From: Glycocaulis sp.
Lineage (GTDB): Bacteria > Pseudomonadota > Alphaproteobacteria > Caulobacterales > Maricaulaceae
Assembly (NCBI GenBank): GCA_022565665.1
Contig: JAIUMI010000014.1
Location: 1 to 62,746 of the forward strand
Direction of reading: 5' to 3'
Length of the DNA stretch: 62,746 nt
The position numbers and the translations under genes are program-made. Below, piece after piece: positions 23,604 to 42,193 of this stretch (position 1 is the first letter of the stretch; each line of letters begins with the position of its first letter). Below the pieces are notes generated by a model. It was not told where the DNA came from, did no database searches, and saw only the letters and a program-made list of their open reading frames with translations.

Positions 23604-24077
23604 ATGCAAAATCTCATTGGCGCCGACACGACTGAAGTTTCAATGGAATCTCTGTCGACCATACGACTCGATCGCCAGATGCGGCAAATTACAATCGTCC
23701 ATAAATTTCTGAAGTGGAAGAAAGTCCCGAGCAAAAACTATGACGAGGTGCTCGGCTTCGACAAAAAGACACTGAGCAAACTGAAAACCGGCGATACAAA
23801 ACTCGCCGCACACCATCAGTTTTCTATATCGAATGGCCTTCAGATGCCCTGGTGGTATATCGAGCTTCTCACGGACATCCCCATGTCAGATGAGCAGCTA
23901 TATCAATTATATTCCGACGCGGATTGGTATAAATCCATACTGCCCAAATTCTTCCTGATACCGAAGCATCAGCGTGATCAGCATTTTCAAACACTGCATG
24001 CTGCCTGGCACCATCATATAAACGCGCTGAAACTCCAATCATTAGCGCTCGATGCCACCATTTCTACAAATTCGTAG
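23604..24077 (+). CDS. Hypothetical protein, candidate regulator
   Basis: 157 residues from the ATG at 23604 with GAGGGGACATC upstream. The middle (YDEVLGFDKKTLSKLKTGDTKL) resembles a divergent Cro/lambda-repressor helix-turn-helix recognition segment, but the match is weak. C-terminal half is His- and Tyr-rich. Divergent from the tra operon across the AT-rich region, the usual place for a transfer regulator. Codon use less GC-rich than neighbours. Confidence 0.55.
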   Translation: MQNLIGADTTEVSMESLSTIRLDRQMRQITIVHKFLKWKKVPSKNYDEVLGFDKKTLSKLKTGDTKLAAHHQFSISNGLQMPWWYIELLTDIPMSDEQLYQLYSDADWYKSILPKFFLIPKHQRDQHFQTLHAAWHHHINALKLQSLALDATISTNS

Positions 24078-24790
24078 TGTTTGGCCTTCTAATCGCGCAG
24101 TGTGAGCGTCTGGAGGATCCGTCCCGCGATGACGGTACGCTCACAGCGCCTGCCATACAGACCGCCCTGCAACTGCGCGCACTCACTGGCGCCATTACGG
24201 CCGCTCACGGTCTTGTTGACGGGCTCAATACGATCCTCACCGAGGCCACCCGTGCGCCGCGTTTCACGCCTTTGCCAGCCACCCTGCCCCAACTCCAGGC
24301 ACTCCGCTCGATCTTGGCCTGGTCCCGGTCTCTCTTCTTCATTGCGGCGCAACTGACTGAAACCAATCAGGCGCTGCATGAGCTGGATCACCCAGCTGGG
24401 CATATCAGCAGTTACGCCGCGCTCTTGCGTGCACGCATCATCCTTCCGGGCAAAGCGTTCATTGGCGGATTTCGCCCGGTAGACCCTGAAAGCCTGATCA
24501 TTCTTCCAGACCGCAAATTCCTGACTGAAACTGGCATGCGCATACTCGGGGAGGCAGCGATCATCAAAACCGCACCAGACCTTCCCGACGGTCTCTCTGA
24601 ATGCCTTATCATCGATCAGCTCAACGCAGCCCTGGATGCCCAGCAGACCGCTAGCCAGCTCATGCGTGAGCTTATCCCGGCGCTCACGCTCAACCGACTG
24701 TCCAGTATCCACACAAGGATGGCAGAGAACCCGGCGATCTTCGGCCGGCTGCCTCCTGGTTGCGATCCCCTCACCCCAATCGTGGGATAG
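24077..24790 (+). CDS. Hypothetical protein
   Basis: 237 residues with GTG start overlapping the preceding stop (TAGTG). Predicted mostly helical, Leu/Ala-rich (TALQLRALTGAITAAHGLVDG; QLMRELIPALTLNRLSSI). No signal peptide, no obvious catalytic motifs. Co-transcribed with the 23604 gene and just upstream of the large ParB gene. Confidence 0.55.
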   Translation: MFGLLIAQCERLEDPSRDDGTLTAPAIQTALQLRALTGAITAAHGLVDGLNTILTEATRAPRFTPLPATLPQLQALRSILAWSRSLFFIAAQLTETNQALHELDHPAGHISSYAALLRARIILPGKAFIGGFRPVDPESLIILPDRKFLTETGMRILGEAAIIKTAPDLPDGLSECLIIDQLNAALDAQQTASQLMRELIPALTLNRLSSIHTRMAENPAIFGRLPPGCDPLTPIVG

Positions 24791-24811
24791 AGAGAAAAAT
24801 GAGGGACGAAG

Positions 24812-24828
24812 GATGCTTTTTCAGCATC
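24812..24828 (+). promoter_or_regulatory. Hairpin upstream of the parB ribosome-binding site
   Basis: GATGCT and AGCATC form a 6-bp stem with a T-rich loop. It lies 7 bases before the Shine-Dalgarno AGGAG (24836-24840) of the parB gene, so the RBS itself stays open. Confidence 0.35.
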
Positions 24829-24848
24829 TTATGACAGGAGAACAACCC

Positions 24849-26720
24849 ATGTCCCCAACTCTCATTCCGCTTCAGCAGCTGGTCGTGTGCGAGTCAAATG
24901 TCCGCTCACGTCCCTATACGCCTGAGAGCGTGGCATCACTTGCCGCCTCTATCGAAAGAAAAGGGCTGCTGCAGTCGCCTCTTGGCTACCGGAAAAGCAA
25001 AAAGCGCGTCGCGCTTTATGGTGGTGGCCGTCGGCTCAAGGCCCTGCAACTGCTTGACCAGGAAGGCCGGCTTCCCGAATCCCTTCAAGCGGGCATCCCT
25101 GTCAATCTACGCGACGGTTCGCTTGCCGACCGCGTCGCAGCATCGTTTGACGAAAATGTGGAACGCGTTGATCTTTCCCCCGTTGAGCAGTTCCACGCTT
25201 TCCAGCGTCTTCGCGAACAAGGCCTGGATGACGATGCCATCGCTATCGAAATGAACGTCACCGCCCGTATCGTGCGTCAGCGGCTATCCCTTTCTGCACT
25301 TCATCCGCGTATCCTGGAAGCCTTTGAAGAAGGCAAGTTCGGGATTGAATTCCTGCAGGCGTTCACTTCCACCGATAACACCGAGCGCCAACTGGAAGTG
25401 CTCGATGAGATGCTCAACGCCTATTACAAATGGTCGGTCCACCAGCTGCGCCACCAACTTCTTCACGACGCGATTACGCCTTCACATCGGCTTGTGAAGT
25501 TCGTCGGCCGGGAGAATTATGAAGCGGCGGGCGGTTCTTTCACTGAAGACCTCTTTGACGAGAATCAATGCTTCTGCGACAACCCCGCGCTACTCACCGA
25601 GCTGGCGACGGGCAAACTTGAAGAGCATGCCGCCGCGATTGCAGATGAGGGCTGGAAATGGGTCACCCCAGTGACAACCCTGGTGTACTCCGAGATCCGC
25701 GAGTATGGCCGTCACTATCCCGAAAATCGCTTCCGTGATGAAGCGGCTGAGAACCGGGATGCGGAAATCTCTGCCCGGCTGGAAGTTCTTGAATCACTTT
25801 ATCAATCGGAGACTGACGACGACGCTCTCGCCAAACTGGGCGAGGAATTTGACTCCCTCGAAAGTGAGCGGGAAACCCTCACGATCGAAGCCTTTACTGA
25901 CGATCAGATTGCTCAATCGGGTGTCTTCGTCTCTGTCTCCCAGACGGGTGAGCTTTTGGTAGAACGGGGGCTCATTCGCCCTGAAGATCAGTCGGCCGCG
26001 CCGGAAGCCCCCTCCCCTTCTTCTGAAGAGAACGCGCAAACTTCCCAGAATGCAGACCAGGACAAGGCCTATCGCCTCTCCAATCGTCTGGCTGAGGACA
26101 TTGATCGCGCTCTGCAGGCAGGTATCCAGCACGCCATCATGGAGGATCAGAAAACAGCCTTCCTGCTTTCCACCGCGCACCTGGCCAAGATAACCTTCCG
26201 TCACAGCCGGCGTTCAATCACCATCTCCTCTGATGGTCCTGCGAACAACGCATCAGCAATCGAGGTCATCACTTCCCAGAAGGCCTCTGAACAATTCGAT
26301 GCCTGGTCGGAACGTCTGAAGAATGCCGAATGCCTGCTTGAAGAGCTGGCCAGCTGGCCTGAAGATGACGTGCACGCCTTGCATACCTTCTGTGCCGCAC
26401 ATCTCTATACCCGTTCGACTGATTGGGGTCGTAATAATAATCCCGACAGCCACCAGACACTTCGCGGCCTTCTTGGCTTCAAACCTGAGAACCATTTTTC
26501 TGCTGACGCAGCCTTCTTTGGTCATTTCACGAAGGGGCAAATCGCCACGGCCTGCCAGATCATGGACTCAACGATGACGCCTGCATCGAATGCCAAGAAG
26601 TCGGATATGGTTCCCGTTGCCACCAAGCTCGCCGCCAAATCTGGTTGGCTCCCATCTGCTTTCACCGACGAAAGGGGCTATGGCCTCGTTGCTCCTACTC
26701 CAGCTCTAGAAGACGCGTAG
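24849..26720 (+). CDS. parB: Large ParB/RepB-family partition protein
   Basis: 623 residues from the ATG at 24849. N-terminal ParB/Srx nuclease-like domain: VCESNVRSRPYTPESVASL, the box-II GGGRRLKAL (CTP-binding region) and ENVERVDLSPVEQFHAF. A helix-turn-helix follows (LDDDAIAIEMNVTARIVRQR). The C-terminal ~350 residues are an acidic extension absent from chromosomal ParB, with a Pro/Ser/Glu linker near 380. Such long ParB-like proteins are common in leading regions of conjugative plasmids. It is not adjacent to parA, so a role other than partition, for example anti-SOS or transcription control, is possible. Confidence 0.85.
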   Translation: MSPTLIPLQQLVVCESNVRSRPYTPESVASLAASIERKGLLQSPLGYRKSKKRVALYGGGRRLKALQLLDQEGRLPESLQAGIPVNLRDGSLADRVAASFDENVERVDLSPVEQFHAFQRLREQGLDDDAIAIEMNVTARIVRQRLSLSALHPRILEAFEEGKFGIEFLQAFTSTDNTERQLEVLDEMLNAYYKWSVHQLRHQLLHDAITPSHRLVKFVGRENYEAAGGSFTEDLFDENQCFCDNPALLTELATGKLEEHAAAIADEGWKWVTPVTTLVYSEIREYGRHYPENRFRDEAAENRDAEISARLEVLESLYQSETDDDALAKLGEEFDSLESERETLTIEAFTDDQIAQSGVFVSVSQTGELLVERGLIRPEDQSAAPEAPSPSSEENAQTSQNADQDKAYRLSNRLAEDIDRALQAGIQHAIMEDQKTAFLLSTAHLAKITFRHSRRSITISSDGPANNASAIEVITSQKASEQFDAWSERLKNAECLLEELASWPEDDVHALHTFCAAHLYTRSTDWGRNNNPDSHQTLRGLLGFKPENHFSADAAFFGHFTKGQIATACQIMDSTMTPASNAKKSDMVPVATKLAAKSGWLPSAFTDERGYGLVAPTPALEDA

Positions 26721-26738
26721 CTTCTTCAAGAGCATCTG

Positions 26739-26783
26739 GCAGGGCGGTTTGCGTTTTCTCCTGGCGTGAACCGCCCTGCTTTA
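26739..26783 (+). terminator. Terminator after parB
   Basis: GCAGGGCGGTT (26739-26749) and AACCGCCCTGC (26769-26779) form a perfect 11-bp stem with a 19-base loop, followed by TTTATGTTT. Confidence 0.65.
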
Positions 26784-26867
26784 TGTTTGCAAGTTGATCC
26801 GATTCCAGATCATTTCTCTGATGTCCTTCAGAACCGGGTTGGCGGTTCCAAGGTATGGCAGCGATAA

Positions 26868-27130
26868 CATTGTTGCACATTGTTCCCCATGTTGCCCCGG
26901 TGTGCCGGGGATACCATGGTGCACCACCCGCGCCATTGTTGCTAATGTCCCCATTGTACGCCATGTTGCACGAGGACAACCCCGGTGCCGGTGTGCTACA
27001 ATGTGACCGATGTTCTACGGCGTGCGCATTGTCCCCATTGTACCCCGCTGACGACCTTGTTACCTTATGTTAACCGTGGTTTGCCATGTTGCCAGCGTTG
27101 AACAACGGCACCTGCGTGCTACCGTGTTTC
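26868..27130 (+). repeat. Array of short decamer-like repeats upstream of parA (candidate centromere)
   Basis: Four contiguous 10-mers open the array: CATTGTTGCA, CATTGTTCCC, CATGTTGCCC, CGGTGTGCCG (26868-26907). Related units recur downstream: CATTGTTGCT, AATGTCCC, CATTGTACGC, CATGTTGCAC (26934-26971), CAATGTGACC, GATGTTCTAC (26999-27018), CATTGTCCC, CATTGTACCC (27027-27045), with looser copies to about 27130. The 10-bp step places every unit on one DNA face. An array like this before parA suits a parS/parC centromere and operator bound by the partition adaptor. Confidence 0.6.
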
Positions 27131-27148
27131 CATGAAGGAGAATGTCTT

Positions 27149-27835
27149 ATGCCTCACAAGGTCATCAGCATCGCCACATCAAAAGGCGGTGCCGGCAAGA
27201 CAACGCTCAGCATCAGCCTCGCCAGCGCATTCGCCGAACAGGGCGGGCGGATTGCGCTAATCGATACCGATCCTCAAGGCTCACTGACGTCCTGGGCAGA
27301 AAAAGCCGATCTGCCTGAATCGATTTCAGTCTACTCGGAATCCACTGATGAAAACCGCGTGATAGATCTAATTGAGGCCGCAAGCCAATCTCACCATTTG
27401 ACGATTGTAGACGTGCAGGGAACCGCCAACACGCTGGCACATACTGCTATGGCCTTCTCCGATCTCGTCATTATCCCGATGAAAGCCTCGGAATTTGATG
27501 CCCGAGCCGCATTCGACACTCTAACCGCAGTGAGGGCCGTCTCACGGAGCCGCCGGAGCGAAATAGAATTCATGCCGGTTCTCAACTGCCTTTCACCGGC
27601 GATTGCGTCCCGCACCGCTCAGGCTATTCGTGAAGGCTTTGAACAAGCCGGTATAACCGTCCAGACAGGCCTTTCAGAGAGAGAAGCTTTCAGGTGCATC
27701 TCAGCCTATGGGGGCTCTCTGTTCCAACTCTCCGATAGCCAGGCGCCCGGTCTTGCCAAGGCCAAAGCCGAAGCACTCGATTTCGCCAGCCTTGTCGCAG
27801 ACAGGCTGGGCATCTCACAGACACAGGCTGCATAG
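27149..27835 (+). CDS. parA: ParA-family partition ATPase
   Basis: 228 residues from the ATG at 27149 (AAGGAG upstream), the short type Ib form without an N-terminal helix-turn-helix. Deviant Walker A KGGAGKTT at 12-19, Walker A' LIDTDPQGSLTSWA and Walker B TIVDVQGTA are present. It would move plasmid copies on the nucleoid. The lack of a DNA-binding N-terminus implies that the small downstream protein, not ParA, binds the repeat array and represses the operon. Confidence 0.93.
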   Translation: MPHKVISIATSKGGAGKTTLSISLASAFAEQGGRIALIDTDPQGSLTSWAEKADLPESISVYSESTDENRVIDLIEAASQSHHLTIVDVQGTANTLAHTAMAFSDLVIIPMKASEFDARAAFDTLTAVRAVSRSRRSEIEFMPVLNCLSPAIASRTAQAIREGFEQAGITVQTGLSEREAFRCISAYGGSLFQLSDSQAPGLAKAKAEALDFASLVADRLGISQTQAA

Positions 27836-27846
27836 GGGAGGGCAGA

Positions 27847-28242
27847 ATGGTCGAGAAACCCAAACTCACCTTCTTCGAAGAAGCACCGGCTAACGCGAAG
27901 TCTCCAGCGATCACCAGGACACGCGAAGAAGTCCTCGCCGCAACGCAGGTGATGAACAAGACACGCGGGATCTCACCAGTGAAGCCGCGTTCCAGATCTG
28001 GACCTATCCCCAAAGAGCGGACCCGATCAGACCGTATCACTGCTCGCACCTATCCCGAGCATTCGGCCGTTGCAAAATACCTCTTTGAGAAACACCGCGC
28101 GGCCGGGCCCGTCCTCGAAGCAGCCATTCTTCAGTTTGCACGTGACGTCATCAAACGAGGCAGTATCAACGACCAGCTCCTATCCGAGCAGCAGATTGCG
28201 GATCTTCAAACTCTGGTCGATCGTGCGGCATCAAATAATTAA
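27847..28242 (+). CDS. Small partition partner protein (candidate centromere-binding adaptor)
   Basis: 131 residues, 11 bases after parA. Disordered, basic N-terminus (SPVKPRSRSGPIPKERTR), then a helical C-terminal half (YPEHSAVAKYLFEKHRAAGPVLEAAILQFARDV) that could be a ribbon-helix-helix or helix-turn-helix dimer. Type Ib ParA operons encode such a small protein second, with a flexible basic tail that stimulates ParA. Function inferred from size and position only. Confidence 0.6.
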   Translation: MVEKPKLTFFEEAPANAKSPAITRTREEVLAATQVMNKTRGISPVKPRSRSGPIPKERTRSDRITARTYPEHSAVAKYLFEKHRAAGPVLEAAILQFARDVIKRGSINDQLLSEQQIADLQTLVDRAASNN

Positions 28243-28281
28243 CGACTGTCGCGCACATCAAAAACCGACTATAAAACAACC

Positions 28282-28298
28282 ATATACATATTGTATAT
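28282..28298. promoter_or_regulatory. ATATAC-N5-GTATAT dyad upstream of the strawberry-notch gene
   Basis: ATATAC (28282-28287), spacer ATATT, GTATAT (28293-28298): a perfect dyad with the same 5-base spacing as the site at 4769. It overlaps an AT-rich promoter-like stretch. Confidence 0.45.
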
Positions 28299-28339
28299 TT
28301 TGCTTGTGCATAAGATAGCTGCGTGCTACACCATTCAAC

Positions 28340-28411
28340 GTCAACAAACACGTTGACCATCCCACTTGGCCGGGCTGCTTGCCCACCCCCGTAAATCGGC
28401 AGCCCGGCCAA
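28340..28411 (+). other. Tandem hairpins between parA operon and strawberry-notch gene
   Basis: GTCAAC/GTTGAC (28340-28345, 28352-28357; loop 6) is followed by a 13-bp perfect stem TTGGCCGGGCTGC / GCAGCCCGGCCAA (28366-28378, 28399-28411; loop 20). No T-run follows, so simple termination is doubtful. They may form a structured leader, or a fold in single-stranded plasmid DNA during transfer. Confidence 0.45.
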
Positions 28412-28479
28412 CTCCTATATCGACGCCATACGTGACATTGCACCGCTCCACCGCCCGAAAGGGAAAGAGGGGAGGGGGC

Positions 28480-28500
28480 CTCCTGAAGCTTTTTCAGGAG
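28480..28500 (+). promoter_or_regulatory. Hairpin sequestering the strawberry-notch Shine-Dalgarno
   Basis: CTCCTGAA (28480-28487) pairs with TTCAGGAG (28493-28500), loop GCTTT. The AGGAG ribosome-binding site is inside the 3' arm, 4 bases before the ATG at 28505. Confidence 0.5.
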
Positions 28501-28504
28501 AAAG

Positions 28505-31500
28505 ATGATGCACCAACAGTCTTCGCTCTCGCGTGCCGCCACATTATTTGCTGGCACGCACATAGAGTGCCCGCTATCGCGGGCCTCTATCAATGACGTC
28601 ATGGACACCACCCATGAGTCTGGCAAGTGGGAATGGCGGGACGCATACGACGCTATCGAAGCCGCCACCGTGCTGCGTATCCTTGCAAGCAATCCCGCCA
28701 GCTCCGTGGCTGAACTACTATCTATCGCCACTCAGCTCCAGCACTGGAAGCCTACTCAAACCATTCGTTCAATCGCCAGCCAGTCGCGCGAGCTATTCTC
28801 CACACCCCCCATTCTGGCTGCCGCCGCGACAAGCCTGCTCAATCTACATAGCGATCATCGCGTGCTCGAACCATCGGCCGGGAACGGTATGCTGGCTGCA
28901 TTTGCAGCTCTGAAAGGTGCCGCACTCACGCTCAATGAGCCTAATGCTCAGTCGCGTTCAGTTCTCAAATTCCTCTTTCCCACAGCCGAAATACTGGATG
29001 CCGACGCAGCCGTGCTTGACGCTTTGACAGCGCCAGGCGGCCTGTATCACCGGGCAATCATCAACCCGCCCTTCGCTCATGCCGAACGTCATCTGAAGAC
29101 CCTGATCTCCTGCCTCGATAGTGAAGGTGTTGCCGTCGCCTTGCTGCCAGCGCGATTGACGGACGCCAGTACATTGTCTGCCGTCCTGGGTGACAGGGCT
29201 GAGTGCGACGTCCTGATGTCTCTTGCTCCGAAGCTATTCGCTCATGCAGGCGTCTCTACCGCCACCGCTCTGGTGCGCTTGATCAAACGCCCTCCGCGCA
29301 AGCTCCCCGATGTTCAACCCATCGCCGACTATGACGAGCTGAAAACTGCTGTTCAGGACATCCGCCGAGCTTCCAACGCTCAACCAGGCGCTGCCCCATC
29401 CAATACTCCAGTCTCAGGACAACTTGGTCTGGATCTCGGCCAAGGCTCTGCGAACCGTCCGTCCCGCGTGCGGTCATTCGGCTCATTCCGTCCTCCGCTT
29501 CCGGGAAAACCCTTGCAATATCGCACCACCGAGCCGCAATCTGCCCAGCCGGCCGGAGACTCTGCCATCTTCGCACGATACCGCCCCAGCCGTGTCTCTC
29601 TCGAAGATGCCAAGCCTCATATCACCCCGCTTGTCGAAACGTTCTCGATGGCGTCCGTCCCGGCGCCCATACCTACCTACCAGCCCTGCCTTCCCGGCCG
29701 TGTGATCAAGTCTGGGATCCTCACCGACGCTCAACTGGAATCCATCATCTATGCCGGTCAGGCTCACGAACGCTTCATTCCCGGCACCTATCTGCCCAAC
29801 GAAAGCGCTCTAGACCTCAACGAACACCCCGAAGGCAATGCCTACCGGTATGGCTACTTCATTGCCGACGGCACCGGGGTAGGGAAGGGGCGTGAAATTG
29901 CCGGGATCCTCATGGACAATCTCTGCCGCGGCCGCACGCGTCACCTCTGGATTTCAGAAAGCGCCACCTTGATAGAAGACGCTCGGCGTGACTGGACCGC
30001 CCTTGGCGGCCGCTCACACGAGGTAATTGATCTCAAAGCCATCTCCGCCAACGACGATATCTCCAATGTCGAAGGTATCCTCTTCGCGACTTACGCAACT
30101 CTGCGCATGGGCTCCACTCAATCACGACGAGCCCGCATCGACCAGATTATCGAGGCGTTCGGCACCGATTTTGACGGCTTGATCATCTTCGACGAAGCCC
30201 ACGCCATGGGCGCTGCGATCCAGATCGAGGGCAAGATCGGTATGGGCAAGGCATCCCAGACCGGCCTCACCGGCCTGCGCCTGCAAAATATGCTCCCAGA
30301 GGCCCGCATCGTTTATGTGTCAGCCACCGGAGGCTCTCACGTCGAGAATTTGGCCTACGCTACGCGCCTCGGCCTCTGGGGTTGCTCCAAGACGCCTTTC
30401 GATACCCGTGAAGCCTGCCTATCCAATCTCTCTGCAGGCGGTCCTGCAGCCCTGGAACTGCTGATGAGAGAGCTTAAGGGCAGGGGGCTCTACACCGCCC
30501 GTTCTCTGAGCTACGAGGGTGTTTCGTATGACCCGCTAACCCACGATTTCACCGCGGAGGATATCGCGCTTTGGGATGAATGGTCAGCCGCCTGGACCGT
30601 CATCCATTTGAACCTCCAGTCCGCTCTGGAATCCACGGGCATTGTCGATGAAACGAAGGCCACCAATTCCAGATCGGCAAAAGCCGCTGCCCTGTCTGCC
30701 TTTGAATCCACCAAGCTCCGGTTTTTCGGCCACCTGCTTCAAACCATTCAGTCACCAGCTCTGATCGAAGCCATAGAAGACGACATCGCCAATGGCCTGG
30801 CTCCCGTCGTGCAAGTCACTTCCACCAATCAATCCGTTCTTGACCGCCGATTGAAACACGCAGCCGAAATGGGCATCGAGAATATCGACATCACCCCGAA
30901 GGAGTACGTGATCGATTATCTTGAAAACGCCTTCCCGGTCGTGAAGCAACAACCGATTTATGAGGACGGTGAGATCGTCGACACCCGACCCCTAATCGAC
31001 CAGGACGGCAACTTTGTCGTCTGTCCTGAAGCCGTCGCTGCACGAGAAGCCCTGTTGACCCGGCTTCTCCTGCTTCCTGAGTGTCTGGGGGCACTCGATC
31101 AGCTCGTCCTGCACTTTGGCCCCGACCGTCTGGCCGAATGCACCGGACGATCCCGGCGCCTGATCATGGCCAATGGGACTCGCACGCTTGTAACCCGGCC
31201 GGCGAGTTCAAATCCGGCCGAAGCAGCCCGTTTCATGGCAGGTGATGCAGATCTGCTCGTCTTCTCCGACGCTGGCGGTACAGGCCGTTCCTATCACGCC
31301 AGTCTCGACCACCAGAACCAGAAGCGCCGCAGCCATTATCTTATCGAACCTGGCTGGCGCGCATCCAAAGCCATTCAGGGCCTTGGCCGCTCTCACCGCT
31401 CCAATCAGGCGGAGCCACCCCGGTTCCGCCCCGTATCAACGAATCTCGCCGGCCAAAAACGCTTCATATCCACCATTGCACGCCGTCTTGAGGTGCTGGG

Positions 31501-32659: not shown

Positions 32660-32676
32660 TTTCTAGACGGTGATCT

Positions 32677-32704: not shown

Positions 32705-32770
32705 TGACCCTAATTGCCTGTTATATCGTTTACTCTTGCCCGATATATATGCCTGCTATAAACCGCCGCC

Positions 32771-33211: not shown

Positions 33212-33251
33212 AAATCGGACTGCGGGACTGACAGGCTTGGGCCAGAGGAAA

Positions 33252-33277
33252 GGTCTCTGGAGCCTGCTCAGGAGACC
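33252..33277 (+). promoter_or_regulatory. Hairpin over the ardC ribosome-binding site
   Basis: GGTCTC (33252-33257) pairs with GAGACC (33272-33277); an inner GAG/CTC can extend the stem. The Shine-Dalgarno GGAG (33271-33274) lies in the 3' arm, 8 bases before the ATG. Confidence 0.4.
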
Positions 33278-33281
33278 CGCC

Positions 33282-34641: not shown

Positions 34642-35076
34642 ATGGCCAGCTTTGATATTACGGGCCACCTCGGCCAGAACGCCGTCATCCGCGAAATTGG
34701 CCGCGCTGACGGCTCCACGACAGAAGTCGCCTTCATCTCGATCGCGTCGAACGACTACGCCGGCAATGATCGCCAGGGCAAGCCGATCTACCATGTGAAC
34801 TGGTATGACGTCGCTACCTTCCGCAAGGATCTGATCAGCTTCCTGAAGAAGCACGGCAAGACCGGCGCCATGCTCCAGATCCGGGGCGATATGGACAGCG
34901 AACGCCGCCAGGCTGACGGCAAATACTTCATGGTCACCCGTTTTCGCGTCGGTCAGACCGGCTTCATGACGCTTCTGCGCCCCGCCTCTGAGAAGAGCTC
35001 GGATGAGCGTCCGTCATCCACCGAGAAGCAGCGTGAGTTCGCGTCCGACACGCTCGACGACGACATTCCGTTCTGA
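34642..35076 (+). CDS. ssb: Single-stranded DNA-binding protein (first copy)
   Basis: 144 residues from MASFDITGHLGQ, chosen because AGGAGAGACC precedes this ATG and family members start here. OB-fold strands FDITGHLGQNAVIREI, YHVNWYDVATF and GAMLQIRGDMDS are visible. The acidic tail ends DDDIPF, the conserved partner-binding tip, so it can recruit host replication and repair enzymes. Plasmid SSBs in leading regions protect the transferred strand and help suppress SOS. Confidence 0.9.
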   Translation: MASFDITGHLGQNAVIREIGRADGSTTEVAFISIASNDYAGNDRQGKPIYHVNWYDVATFRKDLISFLKKHGKTGAMLQIRGDMDSERRQADGKYFMVTRFRVGQTGFMTLLRPASEKSSDERPSSTEKQREFASDTLDDDIPF

Positions 35077-35096
35077 CGCTGACCTAGCCAGCCAGC

Positions 35097-35118
35097 GGCA
35101 GCGCCATAAGGCGCTGCC
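35097..35118 (+). terminator. Stem-loop between ssb and the 35159 gene
   Basis: GGCAGCGCC and GGCGCTGCC form a perfect 9-bp stem with loop ATAA, 20 bases after the ssb stop. No T-run; may be an mRNA 3'-end stabiliser. Confidence 0.45.
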
Positions 35119-35158
35119 GCCCGCTTTCCCACATCACCAATTCTGGAGGTTCGTCATC

Positions 35159-35395
35159 ATGACGAATAGCGAGCGCGCCGAACGCGGCGAGGCTGCCATT
35201 GACGGCTATCTGGCCTATGGCGGCGATCTGAGAAGCAGCTTCGACAACGATGAACTGCTCCATGACGTTTTCACCGATCTGCACCATTGGGCCGTAGGGC
35301 AGGGCATGTCGCGCCGGGACGTGGAAACCACGTTCGGCAAAGCCGCCCAATCCTATCTCGATGAACTGGCGGAAAAAGACGAAGGCGGCTCTTAG
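35159..35395 (+). CDS. Small hypothetical protein
   Basis: 78 residues (MTNSERAERGEAAIDGYLAY) with TGGAGGT upstream of the ATG. Entirely helical by appearance, acidic, with HHWAVGQGMSRRDVETTFG in the middle. It lies between ssb and the radC-like gene. Related short plasmid proteins are common but uncharacterised. Confidence 0.65.
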   Translation: MTNSERAERGEAAIDGYLAYGGDLRSSFDNDELLHDVFTDLHHWAVGQGMSRRDVETTFGKAAQSYLDELAEKDEGGS

Positions 35396-35454
35396 CCGCC
35401 TTCATCCTTTCCAGGCCCGCCATCCAGCCCAACCCCCTGCAGGGAGACACACCC

Positions 35455-35937
35455 ATGCAAGCTGCTCTGGATCTTGATCGTCCCGACTGTGTGTACGCGC
35501 CGGATGACGCAGCACTCGTAGCCGAGGCCCGCGCGGTGCTGCGCCGATACATGACACACCGCCCCCAGATCACCAGTTTCTCCACCGCCAAAGACTATCT
35601 GCGCACCGCTTTCGCGGGTGAAAGGCAGGAGGTCTTCCGGGTGCTCTATCTCGACATTAAGAACAAGCTTATCGAGGACCATCTGGCCGGCCGTGGAACC
35701 GTCAATCATACGCCAGTCTATCCGCGCGAGCTGATCCGCCGCGCGCTTGAAGTCGGCGCATCCGCCATGATCCTCGCGCATAACCATCCATCGGGTGATC
35801 TCACGCCCAGCCATGCCGATATCGAGATGACCCGCAAAATCCTCGATGTCGCCAAACCCTTCGAAATCGCCGTCCATGACCACTTCATCGTGGCCGGTGA
35901 CAACGTTGGCTCCATGCGCTCTGCCGGCCTCATCTAG
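35455..35937 (+). CDS. radC: RadC-like JAB/MPN-domain protein
   Basis: 160 residues. JAMM metal motif HNHPSGDLTPSHADIEMT near 108, preceded by YLDIKNKLIEDHLAGRGTVNHTPVYPRE, the standard RadC core. CAGGGAG ribosome-binding site. RadC-type proteins are widespread on conjugative and integrative elements next to ssb and ardC; their biochemical role is unresolved. The N-terminal helix-hairpin-helix part of chromosomal RadC is absent, typical of element-borne forms. Confidence 0.92.
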   Translation: MQAALDLDRPDCVYAPDDAALVAEARAVLRRYMTHRPQITSFSTAKDYLRTAFAGERQEVFRVLYLDIKNKLIEDHLAGRGTVNHTPVYPRELIRRALEVGASAMILAHNHPSGDLTPSHADIEMTRKILDVAKPFEIAVHDHFIVAGDNVGSMRSAGLI

Positions 35938-36039
35938 CCCGGCACGCCGCGCTCACTCCCTTCCTGCTCATCCCCGGCGGACAAGCGCTGCGTTCAAGCG
36001 CGCGCCCGGTCCTGCCCGATCCAATCGGAGATCCGTCCC

Positions 36040-36513
36040 ATGCAATCGCTCAACCTTCCCGAAGACCTGGTGCACGACGCACTGGAGCGCCTTCGCTCCA
36101 CCCTCGAACACACCTTCGAGGACATGCAGGAGGATTGCACCCAGACCGAGGAAAGCCGGGCCGAATTCGAGGCGCTGATGCGCCGCTACTGGCCCTATCT
36201 GGGAATGTCGGCCCCCCATCCTCTCTGGAATGACCAGTCTGTCCCCGCTTTCGAGCAAACACCTGAAGATCACGAGATCCAGTCCCAGATCGATGAGGCC
36301 GACACCAGTGAAGGCCCGGCACGCCTCTGGTCCGCACGCACCTATCGCCGCGAGACCATCATTGCGCGTGAGGATGTCCTGGTTAGCGCGCGCTCTGAGC
36401 GCGAAGCGCTGGAAATCATTCGCGACGGAGAAGTCCAGTCCGCCACCAATTTCGAGATCAGCAACACGCTGGAATCCGAGCTGACAGAGATTTCGATGCT
36501 CTGCGAAGAGTAA
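36040..36513 (+). CDS. Hypothetical protein
   Basis: 157 residues, acidic. N-terminal helices (LPEDLVHDALERLRSTLEHTFEDM), then a beta-alpha segment TIIAREDVLVSARSEREALEII followed by NFEISNTLESELTEIS, loosely like DpnD/PcfM-type small domains. Not confidently assigned. On the same strand as its neighbours, 102 bases after radC. Confidence 0.6.
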   Translation: MQSLNLPEDLVHDALERLRSTLEHTFEDMQEDCTQTEESRAEFEALMRRYWPYLGMSAPHPLWNDQSVPAFEQTPEDHEIQSQIDEADTSEGPARLWSARTYRRETIIAREDVLVSARSEREALEIIRDGEVQSATNFEISNTLESELTEISMLCEE

Positions 36514-36597
36514 CGCTATTGCATCCCCTCAGTGCCAGTACCGTCGCCTTTTCAGCGACACTTCCTCAACCCGTCCAAAAGGAAAACCGGGAAAGAA

Positions 36598-36618
36598 TTC
36601 ATGCTCATAAGGGCATGA
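36598..36618 (+). promoter_or_regulatory. Small hairpin in the second ssb leader
   Basis: TTCATGC and GCATGAA pair across an 8-base loop, about 50 bases upstream of the second ssb gene. Weak evidence for function. Confidence 0.3.
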
Positions 36619-36669
36619 AGAAAAGGCATGACGCCTGATCGGCCTCTTGGGCACAAACAGGAGAGACCC

Positions 36670-37017
36670 ATGAACAAGTTTATCATTTCCGGCAATCTCG
36701 GTGCAGATGCGGATATCCGCGAGCGCGAGCGTAACGGGGAAACCCGCCGCCAGGCCTTCATCCGCGTCTGTGTGGAATCCTACACCGGCCAGAAGGACGG
36801 CCAGCCGACCTACCGCAAGGACTGGTTCTCCGTCGCCGTCTTCAATCAGGGCCTGGTCAATTATCTCGAAAAGCACGGCAAGAAGGGCGCTTTTGTCCTC
36901 GTGGAAGGTGAGATGGAACAGCGCCGTGTCGATGACACGCGCGAAGCCGCCGTCGAGACGCTCATGCGTGTCACGCAGAGCACCGGCTCCATCGAGCTGG
37001 TGAACCGCGCCAGCTAA
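36670..37017 (+). CDS. ssb: Second single-stranded DNA-binding protein (tail-less)
   Basis: 115 residues from MNKFIISGNLGADADI. OB-fold markers: FIISGNLGADADIRE, YRKDWFSVAVFN, GAFVLVEGEMEQRR. Unlike the first SSB, the C-terminus stops at ELVNRAS with no acidic tail, so it cannot dock the usual partners. The leader AGGAGAGACCC is nearly the same as that of the first copy (AGGAGAGACCA). It may act as a specialised ssDNA coat during transfer. Confidence 0.85.
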   Translation: MNKFIISGNLGADADIRERERNGETRRQAFIRVCVESYTGQKDGQPTYRKDWFSVAVFNQGLVNYLEKHGKKGAFVLVEGEMEQRRVDDTREAAVETLMRVTQSTGSIELVNRAS

Positions 37018-37043
37018 CCTCGCCATATCCACCGGCCGACATG

Positions 37044-37072
37044 AAAAGGGCGCTCCTGCGGAGCGCCCTTTT
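37044..37072 (+). terminator. Intrinsic terminator after the second ssb
   Basis: AAAAGGGCGCTC and GAGCGCCCTTTT form a 12-bp stem with loop CTGCG, ending in TTTTCTCTT on the plus strand; the A-run gives a minus-strand signal too. Clear Rho-independent terminator. Confidence 0.85.
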
Positions 37073-37144
37073 CTCTTGCGTCCGCCGCTCCCTCTAAAAG
37101 CGAAAAATCAGACCGCTTCCTTCGAACCCGCAATGGAGGAAGCC

Positions 37145-37618
37145 ATGTCTGTCAACTTCGCCGCCATCAAGACCCGTCCCGCCCGAGATCTCGAAACCGA
37201 GTATTGGGCCGACGCCGACAAGCTTTTCGAAGGCCGCCGTCTGACTACCGGTAAAATCGAGCTGATGAATGAATGGCGCTGCGCCCATTATGCCTTCGAC
37301 GATATCGCCACCGATTTCGTGATCGATCGCAAGCGCTACACCGTCATCTTCAAAGGCCCGCGCGGCGAAGCCTGCGCCGGCGGATTACGGCGCGCCATTA
37401 CCGACCATCTCGTTGAGATATACGAGAAGACCGGTGATACCGACATCTTCCAGTCCTTCAGAATGCCGGTTCTCGTCACCGGCACCTGGAAGCCGCGCCA
37501 CTGGCGCGATTCACGCGGCGTATGGCGCCGCACGCATGAATTGATCGCTGCCGCCTGGTCATACACCGATCCCCAGACCGGCCAGCACGTCGAAGAGGGG
37601 CGTCTGCCGCGCCTCTGA
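37145..37618 (+). CDS. Hypothetical protein
   Basis: 157 residues (MSVNFAAIKTRPARDLETEY); GGAGGAAGCC precedes the ATG. Beta-strand-rich middle (RKRYTVIFKGPRGEA) and an aromatic, basic C-terminus (WKPRHWRDSRGVWRRTH). No recognised family. Lies between a terminator and the structured 37.6-37.9 kb region, so it is probably a single-gene transcript. Confidence 0.6.
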   Translation: MSVNFAAIKTRPARDLETEYWADADKLFEGRRLTTGKIELMNEWRCAHYAFDDIATDFVIDRKRYTVIFKGPRGEACAGGLRRAITDHLVEIYEKTGDTDIFQSFRMPVLVTGTWKPRHWRDSRGVWRRTHELIAAAWSYTDPQTGQHVEEGRLPRL

Positions 37619-37622
37619 CCGT

Positions 37623-37850
37623 TTCAGCAGCGAAAAGCGAAGCGCGGAGCCAGCCCGCGCGAGCCGTGGGAGATGGGCTCCCCGGCCTATGGCGATACGC
37701 CTCCGCTGCTGAAGGGAGTGAAGCTGATGTGGTTTTTACCGTTTAGCTTCTCTCTGGACGTGAAAAAGACCCGGACGAGCTGGCGAGTTCGCATCCGGGT
37801 CTCGCTCTTCACGATCTAGAGACAGGGGGTCGGGTGGAAGCCCGATCCCC
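37623..37850 (+). ncRNA. Candidate structured RNA or ssDNA fold
   Basis: Three consecutive foldable modules. Stem 1: TTCAGCAGCG (37623-37632) with CGCTGCTGAA (37704-37713), closing about 70 bases that contain a further GGAGCC/GGCTCC pair. Stem 2: GACCCGGA (37768-37775) with TCCGGGTC (37794-37801), framed by GTGAA and TTCAC. Stem 3: GGGGTCGGG with CCCGATCCCC (37826-37850). No gene lies in 37619-37958. Could be a small RNA or a single-strand promoter; unproven. Confidence 0.4.
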
Positions 37851-37958
37851 GCTCCCTCAATCTATCCCATCCCCAGCCCTTTGTGAACCCGCTCGCACGG
37901 GCGCGCCGCCGTGCGCGCACCCCGTTGCGATACTTCACCAGCAACAAGGATTCCCGTC

Positions 37959-38513
37959 ATGGACCAGTCCATCACCATTCCCGCCGTACCCGGCGTCCAT
38001 GTCACGCTCGAATATGGTCCGCGGTTTGAATACGCCCCGGCCGAAGGCGAAAGCAGAGGCCGCGTCGGCCCGCCACCTGATGGCATCCCGCCCCATTTCT
38101 GGGGCGTCTATATGCGCAGCTCTGACGGCCATGCCGTTCATATCGACGACGTGGCCGATGAGGATCTCGCCCGCGCCTATGGTGAGATCTCCGAAGATCT
38201 CCTGTGCGACTCTGCCATGAGCCTCTGGGAAGCGGTCTGTACGGCTCTGCCCGGCAGCCAGCTGGCCATTCTGGCCGATACCGTGCGCTCAACCCATGGC
38301 TCCGCCACTCTACGCCAGTCTGTTGGCGCGCTCGCACGCGGCTGCCATATCGGCTGGATCGCCGCCCACAAGGGCGGCAATGGCTATGATGACGCCTTCG
38401 ATTGGGAGTTCTGCCCCTGGTTCCTCCTGGAATGCTGCAGCTGGGACGACAACGCCGTCTCCCTTAAACCCGACTGGCTTGATACCTGTCTGGCGCTCGG
38501 CCGCTCTGGTTGA
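37959..38513 (+). CDS. Hypothetical protein
   Basis: 184 residues from the ATG at 37959 (CAAGGATTCCC upstream). N-terminal beta region (ITIPAVPGVHVTLEYGPRFE), a central GVYMRSSDGHAVHIDDVADED segment, and a C-terminal part rich in Trp/Cys (WEFCPWFLLECCSWDD). No membrane segments or known motifs. Same strand as the other putative leading-region genes. Confidence 0.6.
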   Translation: MDQSITIPAVPGVHVTLEYGPRFEYAPAEGESRGRVGPPPDGIPPHFWGVYMRSSDGHAVHIDDVADEDLARAYGEISEDLLCDSAMSLWEAVCTALPGSQLAILADTVRSTHGSATLRQSVGALARGCHIGWIAAHKGGNGYDDAFDWEFCPWFLLECCSWDDNAVSLKPDWLDTCLALGRSG

Positions 38514-39694
38514 GCGCGACAACGCACAATGCCTCCACGCTCTTCGAAGATGTGTCTCATTTCCGAGATTCAGGCCGGGATGATAATTCTCGCAATGGCT
38601 ACGCCCATTCGAGACCGTCCGGCCGATAGCCGGGAGCGGAGGGACAGGGCAGGGGGCGCCGTCTTCACCGAAGGCGGATCGATACCCCCAACGCTCTCTG
38701 GCGGGACCGGTAGCGCAAGGCCCGCTATTTTGCCCTTGGAACGCCACGCCTGCTCCGGGCATGCCCAGCAGCATCAATCGCGCATTCTGCGTCTGGCGGG
38801 CTAATTTCGGGCCTACCAGACCGCGTTGATATCGCTAGAGCCCAGTCTGGCTCCGTCATCTATGCCTCTGCCGCCTCAATCAGACATTCTCCCCTGAAGT
38901 CAATCGCGGGTTCTCTGGCTCTCTCTGCCCCCATCAGCAGAGGCGATTGACGACAGCCATGGTCCTCCGATCAGGCCGATCATGCGTCCAACCTCATGGC
39001 ACTTCCCTCTTCCCGTTCAATGCCAGCGCGCGTGAATTGCGTCATGGGGCGAGAGTCGGCAGGTTCGCGTTCCGGCCTGTGGCGAACGCGCCAGTCCGTC
39101 CCGATCCTGTCCTGACACGCATCGGCTCTGTCTCTTGTCTGTGCATCGGCGGACCCGTCACCGCCCGATCGCGCAATCAGCCCTCTGGCATGGTCGAAGG
39201 TCATTCACACCCTGCAGCTCAACGCCGGCGCGCTAATGTCTCCCGTCCCGTGCGCGCCTCTTTGAAAGCGGGCATTTCCTCACAGCGCCAGCTTCAAACG
39301 CTGGCCGGCCATCCTTGTGGCCGCCCGTATGGCTCCGCCCAGGTGCGCATTCGCCTGCCGCGCGGACAGGCGGGTTTCCCTTTAATCCCTCTCGAAGCGT
39401 CATGCGGTGATGCCAGGGCTCCCGCACAATGGCCTGCCTTTTTCGATGCAGAACCGAACGGCCTCGAATGGGAAAAGGTCTGCCCGAAGGACGGCTTCGC
39501 CTCGACCGGCTAAGGCGCAACAGCGCCGGGCCGATTTTTTCCCCTGCCAGCGCTACGCGCTGTCATTCCTCGCGGAACAAAAAATAGTCCCTCTGCTGTC
39601 AAGCCGCTGCGCGGTGCGCCGCCGGTCGCCTCCGGCCTCAAGACCACCCATCGAGGCCGCACGGTGCGCCTCTGACAGAAAAAGGAAAGAAGCC
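38514..39694. other. 1.2-kb stretch without a convincing gene
   Basis: Open frames exist on both strands (for example 38947-39513 plus) but their composition is Arg/Pro/Ser-rich and shadow-like, and none has a good ribosome-binding site. I see no array, tRNA or clear terminator. In a region otherwise tightly packed this suggests functional non-coding DNA, such as single-strand initiation or promoter elements near oriT, or decayed genes. Confidence 0.5.
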
Positions 39695-40591
39695 ATGTAC
39701 GACGCTCTTGAGAACATCACCGCCAATGACGGCTACTCCATCATGTCTGAAACCCGCGACCTGCCGACCGACGACGCTATCGAAACCACCTTCACCGCTA
39801 TCGCCAACGAGCTGGCAGACCTCGGAGCCGGCAACGCACTCGAACCCGTCATCGCCGAATTGCTGGCCCGCTTCACCGGCGCCCTCTACGGCACGGCCGA
39901 GAATTACTCCCGGCGCCATGGCGAGCTGCAGTCCAAAATCGTTGACCTCATCCAGTGCCAGGACGGTTCCGAAGTGAAATCGGTCGAACTGGAACAGGCC
40001 CGCACCGAAGCCGAACATCTCGACCAGCTGATCGATGCAGTGAACAGCGGACAGGAAATCATGGCGCAGGGCTATGCCGCCCTGACCGGGGAACGCTGGA
40101 AGCCCGCACGCGGCTCCATCTACTCCAAGCGCAAGCACGCCAATGCAGCCGTCATCGAGGGCCGTGAATATCTGGCAAATCGTGAGAAAGCCGAAGCGCT
40201 GCGCGCCGTGCCCGAAGGCACCAAAGTCGCCGTCGTCGGTACCGCCAACTACACCGATCACGAACAGGCCTTCGCCAAGCTCGACGCGCTGCACCAGAAG
40301 GCTCCCGATATGGTCCTGATCACCGGCGGACAGAAAACAGGCATCGACAAGATCGCTGCCATCTGGGCCGGTAACCGCAATGTCCCGGTTCTCGTCGTGC
40401 GGCCCGACTTCAAGCGCCACGGCCAGGCCGCAGCCTTCAAGCGCGTTGATCACGTGCTCGATACCTTCAAACCCGAAGCCGTCCTGGCTTTCCTGAAGCA
40501 GGAAGACAAGGCAGGCCTCGCGCTCAACATGGTCCAGAAATCCGAAGAACGCGGCATCTTCACCCGCCGTTTCGGCCAGAAAGCCAACTAG
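39695..40591 (+). CDS. DUF2493 (YspA-like SLOG-fold) protein
   Basis: 298 residues from the ATG at 39695. The N-terminal 190 residues are helical, with a possible coiled coil (VELEQARTEAEHLDQLIDAV). The C-terminal DUF2493 domain shows the Rossmann-like start KVAVVGTANYTDHEQAF, then MVLITGGQKTGIDKIAAIWA and VPVLVVRPDFKRHG. SLOG-type proteins bind nucleotides or nucleotide-derived ligands; DUF2493 genes are frequent next to oriT and ssb on plasmids. It is the last gene before the putative oriT and would enter a recipient first. Confidence 0.85.
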   Translation: MYDALENITANDGYSIMSETRDLPTDDAIETTFTAIANELADLGAGNALEPVIAELLARFTGALYGTAENYSRRHGELQSKIVDLIQCQDGSEVKSVELEQARTEAEHLDQLIDAVNSGQEIMAQGYAALTGERWKPARGSIYSKRKHANAAVIEGREYLANREKAEALRAVPEGTKVAVVGTANYTDHEQAFAKLDALHQKAPDMVLITGGQKTGIDKIAAIWAGNRNVPVLVVRPDFKRHGQAAAFKRVDHVLDTFKPEAVLAFLKQEDKAGLALNMVQKSEERGIFTRRFGQKAN

Positions 40592-40612
40592 AACGCCTAA
40601 GCCGTCCCATCA

Positions 40613-40640: not shown

Positions 40641-41347
40641 TTCTGGCTCGCGTGCGGACATGGAAGGTGACCGGCCAGCTGCGCTGGCCGGTCTCTTATT
40701 TAGCATTCATCCCGGCCCGGAACCCTCCTTTCGTCTCTGCCGTCGACACCTCTCCCCATCAATCCTGAAGAGCGCTAATCAGCATCCACCCGGTTCGCGC
40801 TTTCACAATCCGATTTCGGCTTTCTTTTCGGAGCTCGTCGAAATTAGCGTGCGCTCCGGGGCAGGGGAGTGTGCTGCCCCTATCTGAAGGAGCGTCTCGC
40901 AGCGTAACCGCCCCGATATCGTCTGCCGGTCCAATATGTCTGGAGCTTGTCGGTGTCGGTTGCCGTTGGTCGACAGCAGTGAATCTGACTGGCTGCCCGC
41001 TTGCCTGATGGATCTCTGTGCCTCGGGTTTTTGCGCGCGATCCGATAGCCGGTTCAGCCTCCATGCTTGCTGGATTCTGGTGTGATGGAATCGCAGCTGT
41101 GTGGCGAATTGGGCGAACCGGCCTCACGGCCGGCCAGGCTCTATTCCGCTACGCTCCACCAAGCCCCGGCCAGGCCGGGTCTTGGCCCATACCGGTGACG
41201 ATCCTTTTCGCACCGCTAGCAGGCATGTCCATGCCAGACCTGCCACCAGTCTGATGGCCTCGTGCGTCATCGCCCAGAGCAAGAATTCAGACAGTAAGGG
41301 CGATTGGTCTTGGCGAAGATCAATCGGCTCCTTTCCCCTAAACTCCC

Positions 41348-41384
41348 AACCGCCCGTGGCTCACCCGCTCCGGGCGGTTTTTTT
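41348..41384 (+). terminator. Intrinsic terminator 1 in the oriT-like region
   Basis: AACCGCCCG (41348-41356) pairs with CGGGCGGTT (41371-41379), followed by a run of seven T. Strong plus-strand terminator with no upstream protein gene. Confidence 0.75.
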
Positions 41385-41463
41385 GCCATCAGCCCGAGCA
41401 CCATCGTGTCCCGCTTACGCGGTCCTTTCCGCTCCCGGTTTCTCCATTCATTCTGTCCCCACA

Positions 41464-41488
41464 CCCGGCCATGCCGGGCTGTTTTTTT
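41464..41488 (+). terminator. Intrinsic terminator 2 in the oriT-like region
   Basis: CCCGGC and GCCGGG pair across the loop CAT, followed by CTG and seven T. Second plus-strand terminator about 80 bases after the first. Confidence 0.7.
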
Positions 41489-42016
41489 GCGACATAACAG
41501 AGCGCTTTTGCATCTCTGCTTCTCGCGCGAAGCGTGGAGCTTTCTGGTGCCGGTTCCGGCTCACTTTTCCCGTCGCGTGTTTTCGGTTTTTCGAGCGCGA
41601 CAACGCTACGTCAACAGCCTCGCTTTTCCCTTCACCGCCTTTCCCGGTCTCATTGAGCTGGCGCATTCACATCCCGCCCTGCGGTGTGATCCTCTCCCGT
41701 CCAGCCGGAGAGGTTGGACGCTATGCGCGACCGATCCGGTCTTCGCCACTGGCAGGTTCGCGACAACGGTTCTGACGATGTGGCCCTGTTTCCCCTTTGC
41801 GACTATCAGCCGGTACGGGCGGCTGCGCCGCCCGCGCATCAGCGCATTGGTTTTTTCTCACACAGTATGCACGCCGTGCCGTCTTGCTGCGCAAGACGAT
41901 TTTCACTAGTTATACCAAACACTTACAAGATGGGGGCCATTTGGACCAAGGCGACAACGCCAAAACCAGCGAAATGGGCCCATTCCAATTGGCTTGTGAT
42001 TTCAATGGGTTCGGTT

Positions 42017-42067
42017 GGCCATATCATGGCCCTGTCCGTGGCCATGCTATGGCCCCTCGTGGCCATG
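42017..42067. repeat. Spaced GGCCAT palindromes upstream of the RHH-traD-traI operon
   Basis: Two dyads, GGCCATATCATGGCC (42017-42031) and GGCCATGCTATGGCC (42040-42054), plus a third half-site GGCCATG (42061-42067). Units step 21-23 bp, two helical turns. Likely binding sites of the ribbon-helix-helix protein encoded 127 bp downstream, either as an operator or as part of the relaxosome at oriT. Confidence 0.55.
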
Positions 42068-42193
42068 TTCTGGTCGTCGTGCCTATCGGCAGCTTCTGCA
42101 CGATCATCTTCTATTGCGCAACTCGGCCAATCGTGCTTTGCTACTTCAGTCTCAACTCCTGTCGTCCTTGTCTATTCATACGAGGACGATCTA

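Follow-up and report, generated by a model that had tools for sequence, protein, structure and literature searches.

Introduction

To our knowledge, gene expression from single-stranded plasmid DNA as it enters a recipient has been worked out mainly for the F-like plasmids of E. coli. The closest described system is Frpo, a noncoding leading-region sequence that in its single-stranded form becomes a stem-loop rebuilding the −10 and −35 boxes and that drives early, transient expression (PMC9849209). The Frpo/ssi sequences of F and ColIb-P9 are noncoding leading-region hairpins on the template strand (PMC9849209, PMC11541004), and those of F recur in one orientation at intervals of a few kb and stop ~20 nt before leading genes. 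Polyvalent-protein loci of phages and conjugative elements are the subject of another paper, whose terms include ArdC, strawberry notch and conjugative elements (PMC5512222). Here we set beside these systems a stretch of Glycocaulis DNA that makes up positions 1–62,746 of contig C14; the draft genome (G000) comprises 31 contigs and 2.74 Mb, and the window below means this whole stretch of 62,746 nt. We read its region between 23.6 and 41.9 kb as the leading region of an F-type (MOBF) Glycocaulis plasmid in which a structured noncoding element at 39452–39674 most likely works like Frpo, an interpretation to which we give marginally better than an even chance.

The element is the new part of this analysis, and the family to which it belongs had no name. 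It is conserved, contains covarying base pairs, keeps its position and its strand relative to the gene that follows, and is repeated and widespread.

A conserved noncoding element in alphaproteobacterial mobile DNA

The element (39452–39674, 223 nt) scores 205.9 bits with R2, a covariance model of the minus strand, which is the predicted transferred strand (T-strand) and has the stronger consensus fold. It ends 20 nt before the ATG of a DUF2493 gene (39695). As relatives we used contig C2 of another genome of the genus (G003) and contig C10 of Glycocaulis albus (G002), with which the window aligns in blocks from 11.4 to 49.9 kb at 78–88% DNA identity, eight of the ten blocks lying at 84–88%. 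The element is noncoding, because G003 has a frameshift within it and the indels in the relatives are not multiples of three. Measured against 557 coding 50-mers (median 41, 99th percentile 49), it is more conserved than nearby coding DNA: the 50-mers at 39474 and 39525, both inside the element, are invariant in all three species, as is one at 36571.

At E 0.01, 84 of 398 genomes of the order responded to a DNA search with the element, mostly with short or weak matches; of the nine best matches outside Glycocaulis, which we inspected, several are followed by a DUF736 gene. With R2, matches were found in 23 of 385 alphaproteobacterial genomes including the host (E 1e-5). The copies examined come from 20 regions of at most 20 kb from 17 of the 22 genomes other than the host, together with plasmid pMC4 (L040). 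These gave 47 matches at E 0.01, one of which is an opposite-strand echo (in L090) and was dropped, leaving 46 copies in 21 regions. The gene directly downstream is DUF736 for 21 copies, DUF2493 for 12, ArdC for five and TraF/S26 for one, and no named gene follows the other seven. Naming by the longest downstream open reading frame (ORF) had left 16 of the 46 genes unnamed, and the counts are therefore taken from tblastn. The TraF/S26 case (L088:4183–4303, 23 bits, inside a DUF2840 stretch) is probably a false match and is retained in the 46. Pfam searches with four of the genes that follow copies bore out the names DUF736, ArdC and DUF2493 (YAcAr), and in the other five of these 22 genomes the 3-kb loci around the match contain DUF736 (four) or DUF2493 (one).

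For the 38 of 46 copies directly before DUF736, DUF2493 or ArdC, the modelled strand is the template of the gene, and on the opposite side and strand such adjacency was found for none of the 46. Wherever a region holds at least two copies, all of them lie on the same strand (18 of 18 regions).

The element is also found on many plasmids. Using one copy as the blastn query, we obtained matches in 529 of 72,556 plasmids, and among 60 of these taken at an even spread no annotated feature lies beneath the match in 50, a feature lies beneath it in eight and the record is unannotated in two. In pRi1724 and in a pTi plasmid, two DUF736 genes are each preceded by a copy; pCHQ1 carries one copy before DUF2493 and another before DUF736, and pNGR234a carries one before DUF736. 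The relaxases beside the element are of the MOBF, MOBQ (pRi1724, pNGR234a) and MOBP (pCHQ1) types, and the genes read toward the relaxase locus, namely toward traG-traD-traC and traA in pRi1724 and pNGR234a and toward a VirD2-like relaxase gene in pCHQ1. Non-significant R2 matches lie where the element would be expected, 29 nt before DUF2493, in pCAR3 and pCADAB1 (15.1 and 11.9 bits, E 0.12 and 0.66). All Mesorhizobium integrative and conjugative elements (ICEs) covered in PMC8627217 have DUF736, which is often duplicated. Ten loci with the element had no match in Rfam at E 1, and none of the titles and abstracts listed in literature searches described such an element.

Predicted origin and direction of transfer

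We searched for an origin of transfer (oriT) as a hairpin followed by a nic-like tail, the tail pattern being built from the nic motifs of R388 and F. The candidate oriT core lies on the minus strand at 41943–41961 and consists of the hairpin GGCG-TTGT-CGCC followed by TTGGTCC, with nic predicted 3' of TTGGTCC to within a base or two. In the three-way alignment of 41.3–42.5 kb, GGACCAAGGCGACAACGCC, whose minus strand reads as this hairpin and tail, is perfectly kept, and a hypervariable stretch starts there; the 19-mer of the core is thus invariant in three species at the border of an unalignable stretch. Allowing up to three mismatches, it occurs once in the window, where 0.05 occurrences are expected. 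The scan gave 21 matches over the whole window and three in the 40.6–42.2 kb gap, two of which are overlapping readings of one plus-strand GGCCAT repeat; a looser pattern gave matches, largely background, in 17 of 200 genomes of the order.

The surroundings of the candidate are those of the R388/F class of MOBF origins, with a hairpin, a predicted nic within about 8 nt, and the accessory, TraD and relaxase genes downstream. On the plus strand follow an RHH (TrwA-like) accessory gene (42197–42532; variable N-terminus, conserved C-terminus; Pfam RHH_8 barely over cut-off), the TraD/TrwB coupling protein gene (42475–44715; Pfam TrwB_AAD_bind, E 1.6e-126) and the MobF/TraI relaxase-helicase gene (44719–47676; NCBIfam MobF, Pfam TrwC). 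An earlier sequence-only reading of this DNA had noted that traD and traI read away from the region around 42 kb, and the three genes do so. Among 61 related genomes, and in the one named match of a genome-contig scan, relaxase relatives at 93–94% identity occur only in Glycocaulis, in G. albus and G003.

The same arrangement is found in sphingomonad plasmids. In five of the nine that were scanned (L035, L037, L038, L041 and L042), a minus-strand match lies just upstream of the RHH gene, and all five have SSB and DUF2493 genes on the leading side reading toward the oriT candidate. The matches of L032 and L039 lie elsewhere, and L036 and L040 gave none; L033 and L034 stand outside the nine.

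An origin at this place and on this strand would make the minus strand the T-strand, with 41.9 to 23.6 kb as the leading region. Nicking by TraI would fall at 41942/41943 of the minus strand, which would be transferred 5' end first, so that 41.9 to 23.6 kb would arrive first and its plus-strand genes would use the entering strand as template. The proposal of the sequence-only reading that a leading region points at oriT, with the transferred strand as template, thus gains support from the minus-strand MOBF geometry beside RHH-TraD-TraI. We hold the predicted place and direction of oriT with considerable confidence. An oriT at 23.0–23.6 kb beside a pilin gene, as in F, would mean that the gene run is not a leading region. 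That gap is relatively AT-rich, is 76–82% conserved and occupies an F-like place beside the type IV secretion system (T4SS) genes. However, it contains no hairpin-plus-nic match, the conserved geometry at 41943–41961 beside RHH-TraD-TraI recurs in the five sphingomonad plasmids, and two further copies of the oriT block, described below, retain the 41.7–42.9 kb block and not 23.0–23.6 kb. We regard an origin at 23.0–23.6 kb as highly improbable.

Next to the oriT core at 41943–41961, the hypervariable stretch (41962–42215) contains GGCCAT-type repeats and gives no blastn alignment between species; the repeats are probably binding sites of the RHH protein. The RHH N-terminus varies between the three species along with these presumed binding repeats (41962–42300), while its C-terminus and the relaxase hairpin are fixed, a pattern that suggests that the RHH gene evolves together with its repeats.

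The two oriT-block copies lie at L113:9474–11211 (contig C1 of G003, 2.88 Mb) and L114:8056–9784 (contig C2 of G002, 358 kb). They correspond to ~41.7–42.9 kb of the window and comprise oriT with one loop change, the RHH gene and the 5' end of traD, together with a piece of the 37.8-kb leader described below, beside a 434-aa ORF with a phage integrase match in L113. Judged from these contents, they possibly represent an integrated element borrowing the plasmid's relaxase. A CRISPR array of G002 (L114, ~17.9–20.0 kb) lies ~8 kb from the oriT copy. Compared with the window and with an 80-kb stretch from each relative, its 28 spacers gave only partial matches of 13–22 nt, none of them convincing.

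The element fold and its strand preference

The T-strand structure of the element has double-sided changes in 45 of 59 pairs, and 90.7% of cells in the 47 rows are paired. None of 500 shuffles reached any of these measures, and slid structures pair 41–52% of cells. The sense strand is likewise structured, with 34 of 46 pairs covarying and 0 of 500 shuffles reaching this, and a core is common to both structures.

In consensus folds the T-strand is favoured, with −52.2 kcal/mol and z −9.1 against −32.2 kcal/mol and z −3.7 for the sense strand in 12 sequences, and z −11.0 against −6.9 in 23 non-redundant sequences of 36. The covariation term of the 12-sequence fold is above shuffles on the T-strand only, and raw covariation in the 23-sequence fold is 2.17 for the T-strand and 1.72 for the sense strand. 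Wobbles point the same way: in the same 45 copies (34 non-redundant), the G.T:A.C ratio in covarying pairs is 53:10 for the T-strand fit and 21:26 for the sense fit, counts that rest on alignments each fitted to its own structure and lose weight for that reason. Echoes and doubtful matches were removed from this set; before removal the counts were 54:11 and 39:28.

As a yardstick we folded 351 and 341 nt of the two ~540-nt repeats of F (10082–10622 and 15470–16012 of L129), which by position correspond to Frpo1 and Frpo2, with mononucleotide shuffles as controls. Their T-strand z values were −6.7 and −5.6, those of the sense strand −5.7 and −4.7. A strand test on single folds decides little, because these experimentally supported Frpo loci separate the strands no better than the copies of the element do. 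The strand under selection is thus less firmly established than the structure itself: the consensus folds and wobbles favour the T-strand, single folds do not, and the covariation term of the 23-sequence fold leans to the sense strand in units of standard deviation.

In the main rival explanation, leading-region genes would be transcribed from double-stranded DNA in the ordinary way, and the element, as the folded 5' leader of their mRNA on the sense strand (a riboswitch, thermometer or protein-binding leader), would control their translation. The sense strand does fold and covary as such a leader should (34 of 46 pairs, consensus z −6.9, covariation 12.1 standard deviations (sd) over shuffles), its end lies 17–26 nt before the start codon in the nine cases with known start, a leader-like spacing, and genes of different families are headed by it, as by a riboswitch. 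The consensus fold and the wobble ratio nevertheless favour the other strand, no Rfam family was found, and the 120 nt upstream of 30 copies hold no conserved or promoter-like sequence. The Frpo loci of F, moreover, end at an equal distance from their genes. We consider a sense leader unlikely, though a serious alternative.

The stronger consensus fold on the minus strand would also suit a FinP-like antisense RNA that is transcribed from that strand and keeps the genes silent in donors. However, none of 30 copies has a five-T run in the 45 nt that follow the minus-strand 3' end, which makes an antisense RNA with an intrinsic terminator unlikely, and minus-strand promoter-like signals within the element are not above the shuffled level. 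We regard an antisense RNA as the least probable of the explanations considered.

A possible Frpo-like mechanism

Under the Frpo-like interpretation, the element in the entering single strand would form a long, imperfect hairpin; this would serve as the start site for transcription of the downstream gene before the DNA is double-stranded, and would perhaps also yield a primer for second-strand synthesis. We infer that the element acts in single-stranded DNA and that RNA polymerase starts there. As in Frpo/ssi, the sequence is noncoding and immediately precedes genes of the predicted leading region, with its modelled strand as their template, and it forms a conserved hairpin on the predicted transferred strand. 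The spacing agrees as well: the two ~540-nt repeats of F stop 22 and 21 nt short of the genes that follow them, one of which is ssb and the other another leading gene.

Another alternative is that the element is a single-strand initiation site (ssi) priming complementary-strand synthesis in the recipient and that its place before genes is secondary. It has a T-strand structure, lies in the leading region and is present in several copies per mobile element; in addition, a piece of a different leader (37758–37893) is retained beside the oriT copy in two other contigs. Against this, 38 of 46 copies abut the starts of DUF736, DUF2493 or ArdC genes, and a pure priming site needs no such link. We therefore find a pure priming site improbable.

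Several observations speak against an Frpo-like function. No homology was found at the sequence level, as R2 gave no match at E 0.05 in 48–68 kb of F, and in 30 copies neither the element nor the 120 nt before it scores above shuffled sequence for sigma-70 boxes; boxes matching 9 of 12 positions occur on the sense strand in 1 of 30 elements and on the T-strand in 0 of 30, the consensus used being that of E. coli only. No convincing second copy was found in the window with R2, so the element is single there, and, as noted, seven of the 46 copies precede no named gene. The T-strand direction in the MOBQ and MOBP systems is deduced from the relaxase gene. On the structural side, single-sequence DNA folds give z −3.93 for the T-strand and −3.49 for the sense strand, the T-strand being better in 13 of 23 (p 0.25), and the covariation term of the 23-sequence fold is 8.7 sd over shuffles on the T-strand and 12.1 on the sense strand. 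Wobbles counted on folds built without G.U are few (11:4 against 3:5 for 12 sequences, 4:0 against 3:5 for 23). Furthermore, a complete F-type conjugation set including TraG and TraH was not found in G000: TraH and TraG_N had no match in its 31 contigs and were both found in G002 and G003, in a search that did not extend to TraN and TraF. The plasmid may therefore not transfer itself, or the assembly may be incomplete, and self-transfer is unproven.

In summary, place, strand, repetition and distance are common to the element and Frpo, and sequence and boxes are not; for this reason we say that the element probably works like Frpo and not that it is Frpo.

The one-way gene run

The predicted leading region is filled by a run of genes on the plus strand (23604–40591), all reading toward the oriT candidate. 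Comparison of codons in the three species shows an excess of third-position change in the plus-strand ORFs at 23604, 24077, 24636, 27086, 27847, 28505, 32771, 33237, 34510, 35159, 35455, 36040, 36628, 37145, 37959 and 39695. The pattern is weakest in 34510, 37145 and 37959, where silent changes are about as frequent as amino-acid changes. The large minus-strand ORFs at 28258, 35392, 36529, 38310 and 39638 show no coding pattern, and each has a stop in at least one relative; the ORFs at 38529 and 38947 show no coding behaviour either. For short minus-strand ORFs that lie antisense to plus genes and in register with them, the codon test gives no verdict, and several show the pattern. Sixteen consecutive genes on one strand, mostly retained in three species, are beyond chance, and the codon patterns of the three Glycocaulis plasmids bear out the earlier description of a run from 23.6 to 40.6 kb read toward 42 kb. 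In G003:C2, a 13.7-kb insertion splits the run between window positions 32659 and 32689, directly after the strawberry-notch gene. Repeats inside the region amount to short, chance-like two-copy families.

The gene families that had been named from the sequence (ParB, strawberry-notch/methyltransferase, ArdC, SSB, RadC and DUF2493) were recovered with Pfam and PHROG. The ParB-like ORF (24636–26720; HTH_ParB, E 1.7e-5) probably starts near 24813 and is followed by a ParA/VirC1-like ATPase gene (27086–27835; Pfam AAA_31, VirC1) and by a 1384-aa protein with a methyltransferase-like N-terminus and a strawberry-notch helicase (28505–32659; Pfam AAA_34, Helicase_C_4; PHROG DNA methyltransferase at residues 93–226). 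The ArdC anti-restriction gene (33237–34232; Pfam ArdcN, MPTase-PolyVal) has no match in the G. albus genome, and the blast alignment has a gap there too. A further SSB-like gene (34510–35076; PHROG 44, E 1.1e-8) gives the run a second SSB beside that at 36628–37017 (Pfam SSB, E 1e-12), and a RadC-like JAB protein gene lies at 35455–35937 (Pfam RadC, E 4e-40). The DUF2493/YAcAr (SLOG) gene behind the element spans 39695–40591 (Pfam YAcAr, E 1.6e-21) and has a frameshift upstream of its ATG in G003.

Five plus-strand genes belong to no named family: a 146-aa gene at 32771–33211, a 78-aa gene at 35159–35395, a 157-aa gene at 36040–36513, another of 157 aa at 37145–37618 and a 184-aa gene at 37959–38513. 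The sequence-only reading had put these five forward as candidates for anti-defence functions. The first four are recognised by their coding pattern, and that of the last is weak. The gene at 37145 is limited to the genus, with homologues in 3 of 200 genomes of the order. In 72,556 plasmids, tblastn at E 1e-3 gave no match for 32771, 36040 and 37145 and two partial matches for 37959. Searches of the five against PADLOC and PHROG gave two weak matches only, at E 0.03, and against Pfam a single match below cut-off (Latarcin, 36040).

Other features of the window

A structured noncoding leader at 37619–37958, with no strand assigned, is 91–94% identical in the relatives, and pieces of it also occur in other Maricaulaceae contigs (G191, G163). 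Its two halves give sense-strand RNA fold z values of −4.4 and −5.1 and minus-strand DNA fold z values of −4.5 and −1.7. Between the DUF2493 gene and oriT, beyond the terminator-like hairpins just after DUF2493, plus-strand positions 41290–41490 contain three more conserved hairpins, of which two are terminator-like and the third shows a compensatory change. This stretch is possibly a small RNA, to judge from its hairpins, and it gave chance-level matches and no Rfam family at gathering level. Over the window, none of the 4227 Rfam models matched at that level, and no tRNA was found.

The F-type T4SS genes lie on the minus strand at 11391–23001 (TrbC, TraU, TraW, TraC, DsbC-like, TraB, TraK, TraE and pilin-like), and RepC lies at 3.4–4.7 kb. 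Both contig ends (1–128 and 62624–62744) match one stretch of a chromosome-size contig of G003 that contains a 402-aa ORF; this may be an insertion sequence at which the assembly broke.

Comparison with known systems

If the interpretation holds, zygotic expression could be approached through the element in Alphaproteobacteria at large, plasmids of symbionts and of plant-associated bacteria among them, and its sequence could mark leading regions and the direction of transfer. It could also serve as a finder of anti-defence genes, any gene after a copy being a candidate. In its broadest form the interpretation is that a class-wide family of elements, working only in single-stranded DNA, switches on ArdC, DUF2493 and DUF736 genes in entering plasmid or ICE DNA, with MOBF, MOBQ and MOBP systems alike and with no E. 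coli-type boxes. The family, with members on Ti, Ri and symbiosis plasmids, would then be the counterpart of Frpo in Alphaproteobacteria. We advance this broader interpretation tentatively, at somewhat less than an even chance.

The leading-region islands of Samuel et al. 2024 resemble the window in having anti-defence, SSB and methyltransferase genes on the T-strand side (PMC11541004). In that study, known Frpo/ssi sequences are sought by BLAST and E. coli-type boxes, and the terms 'Alphaproteobacteria', 'DUF' and 'ArdC' do not occur in the main text. The sphingomonad MOBF plasmids of the pNL1/pCAR3 type share with the window the order DUF2493, gap, RHH, TraD and MobF, with SSB upstream in most, whereas their relaxase is about 29% identical to that of the window. 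Compared with Frpo itself, the element is shorter, about 225 nt against the ~540-nt repeats of F; it is alphaproteobacterial and stands ahead of DUF736, DUF2493 and ArdC genes.

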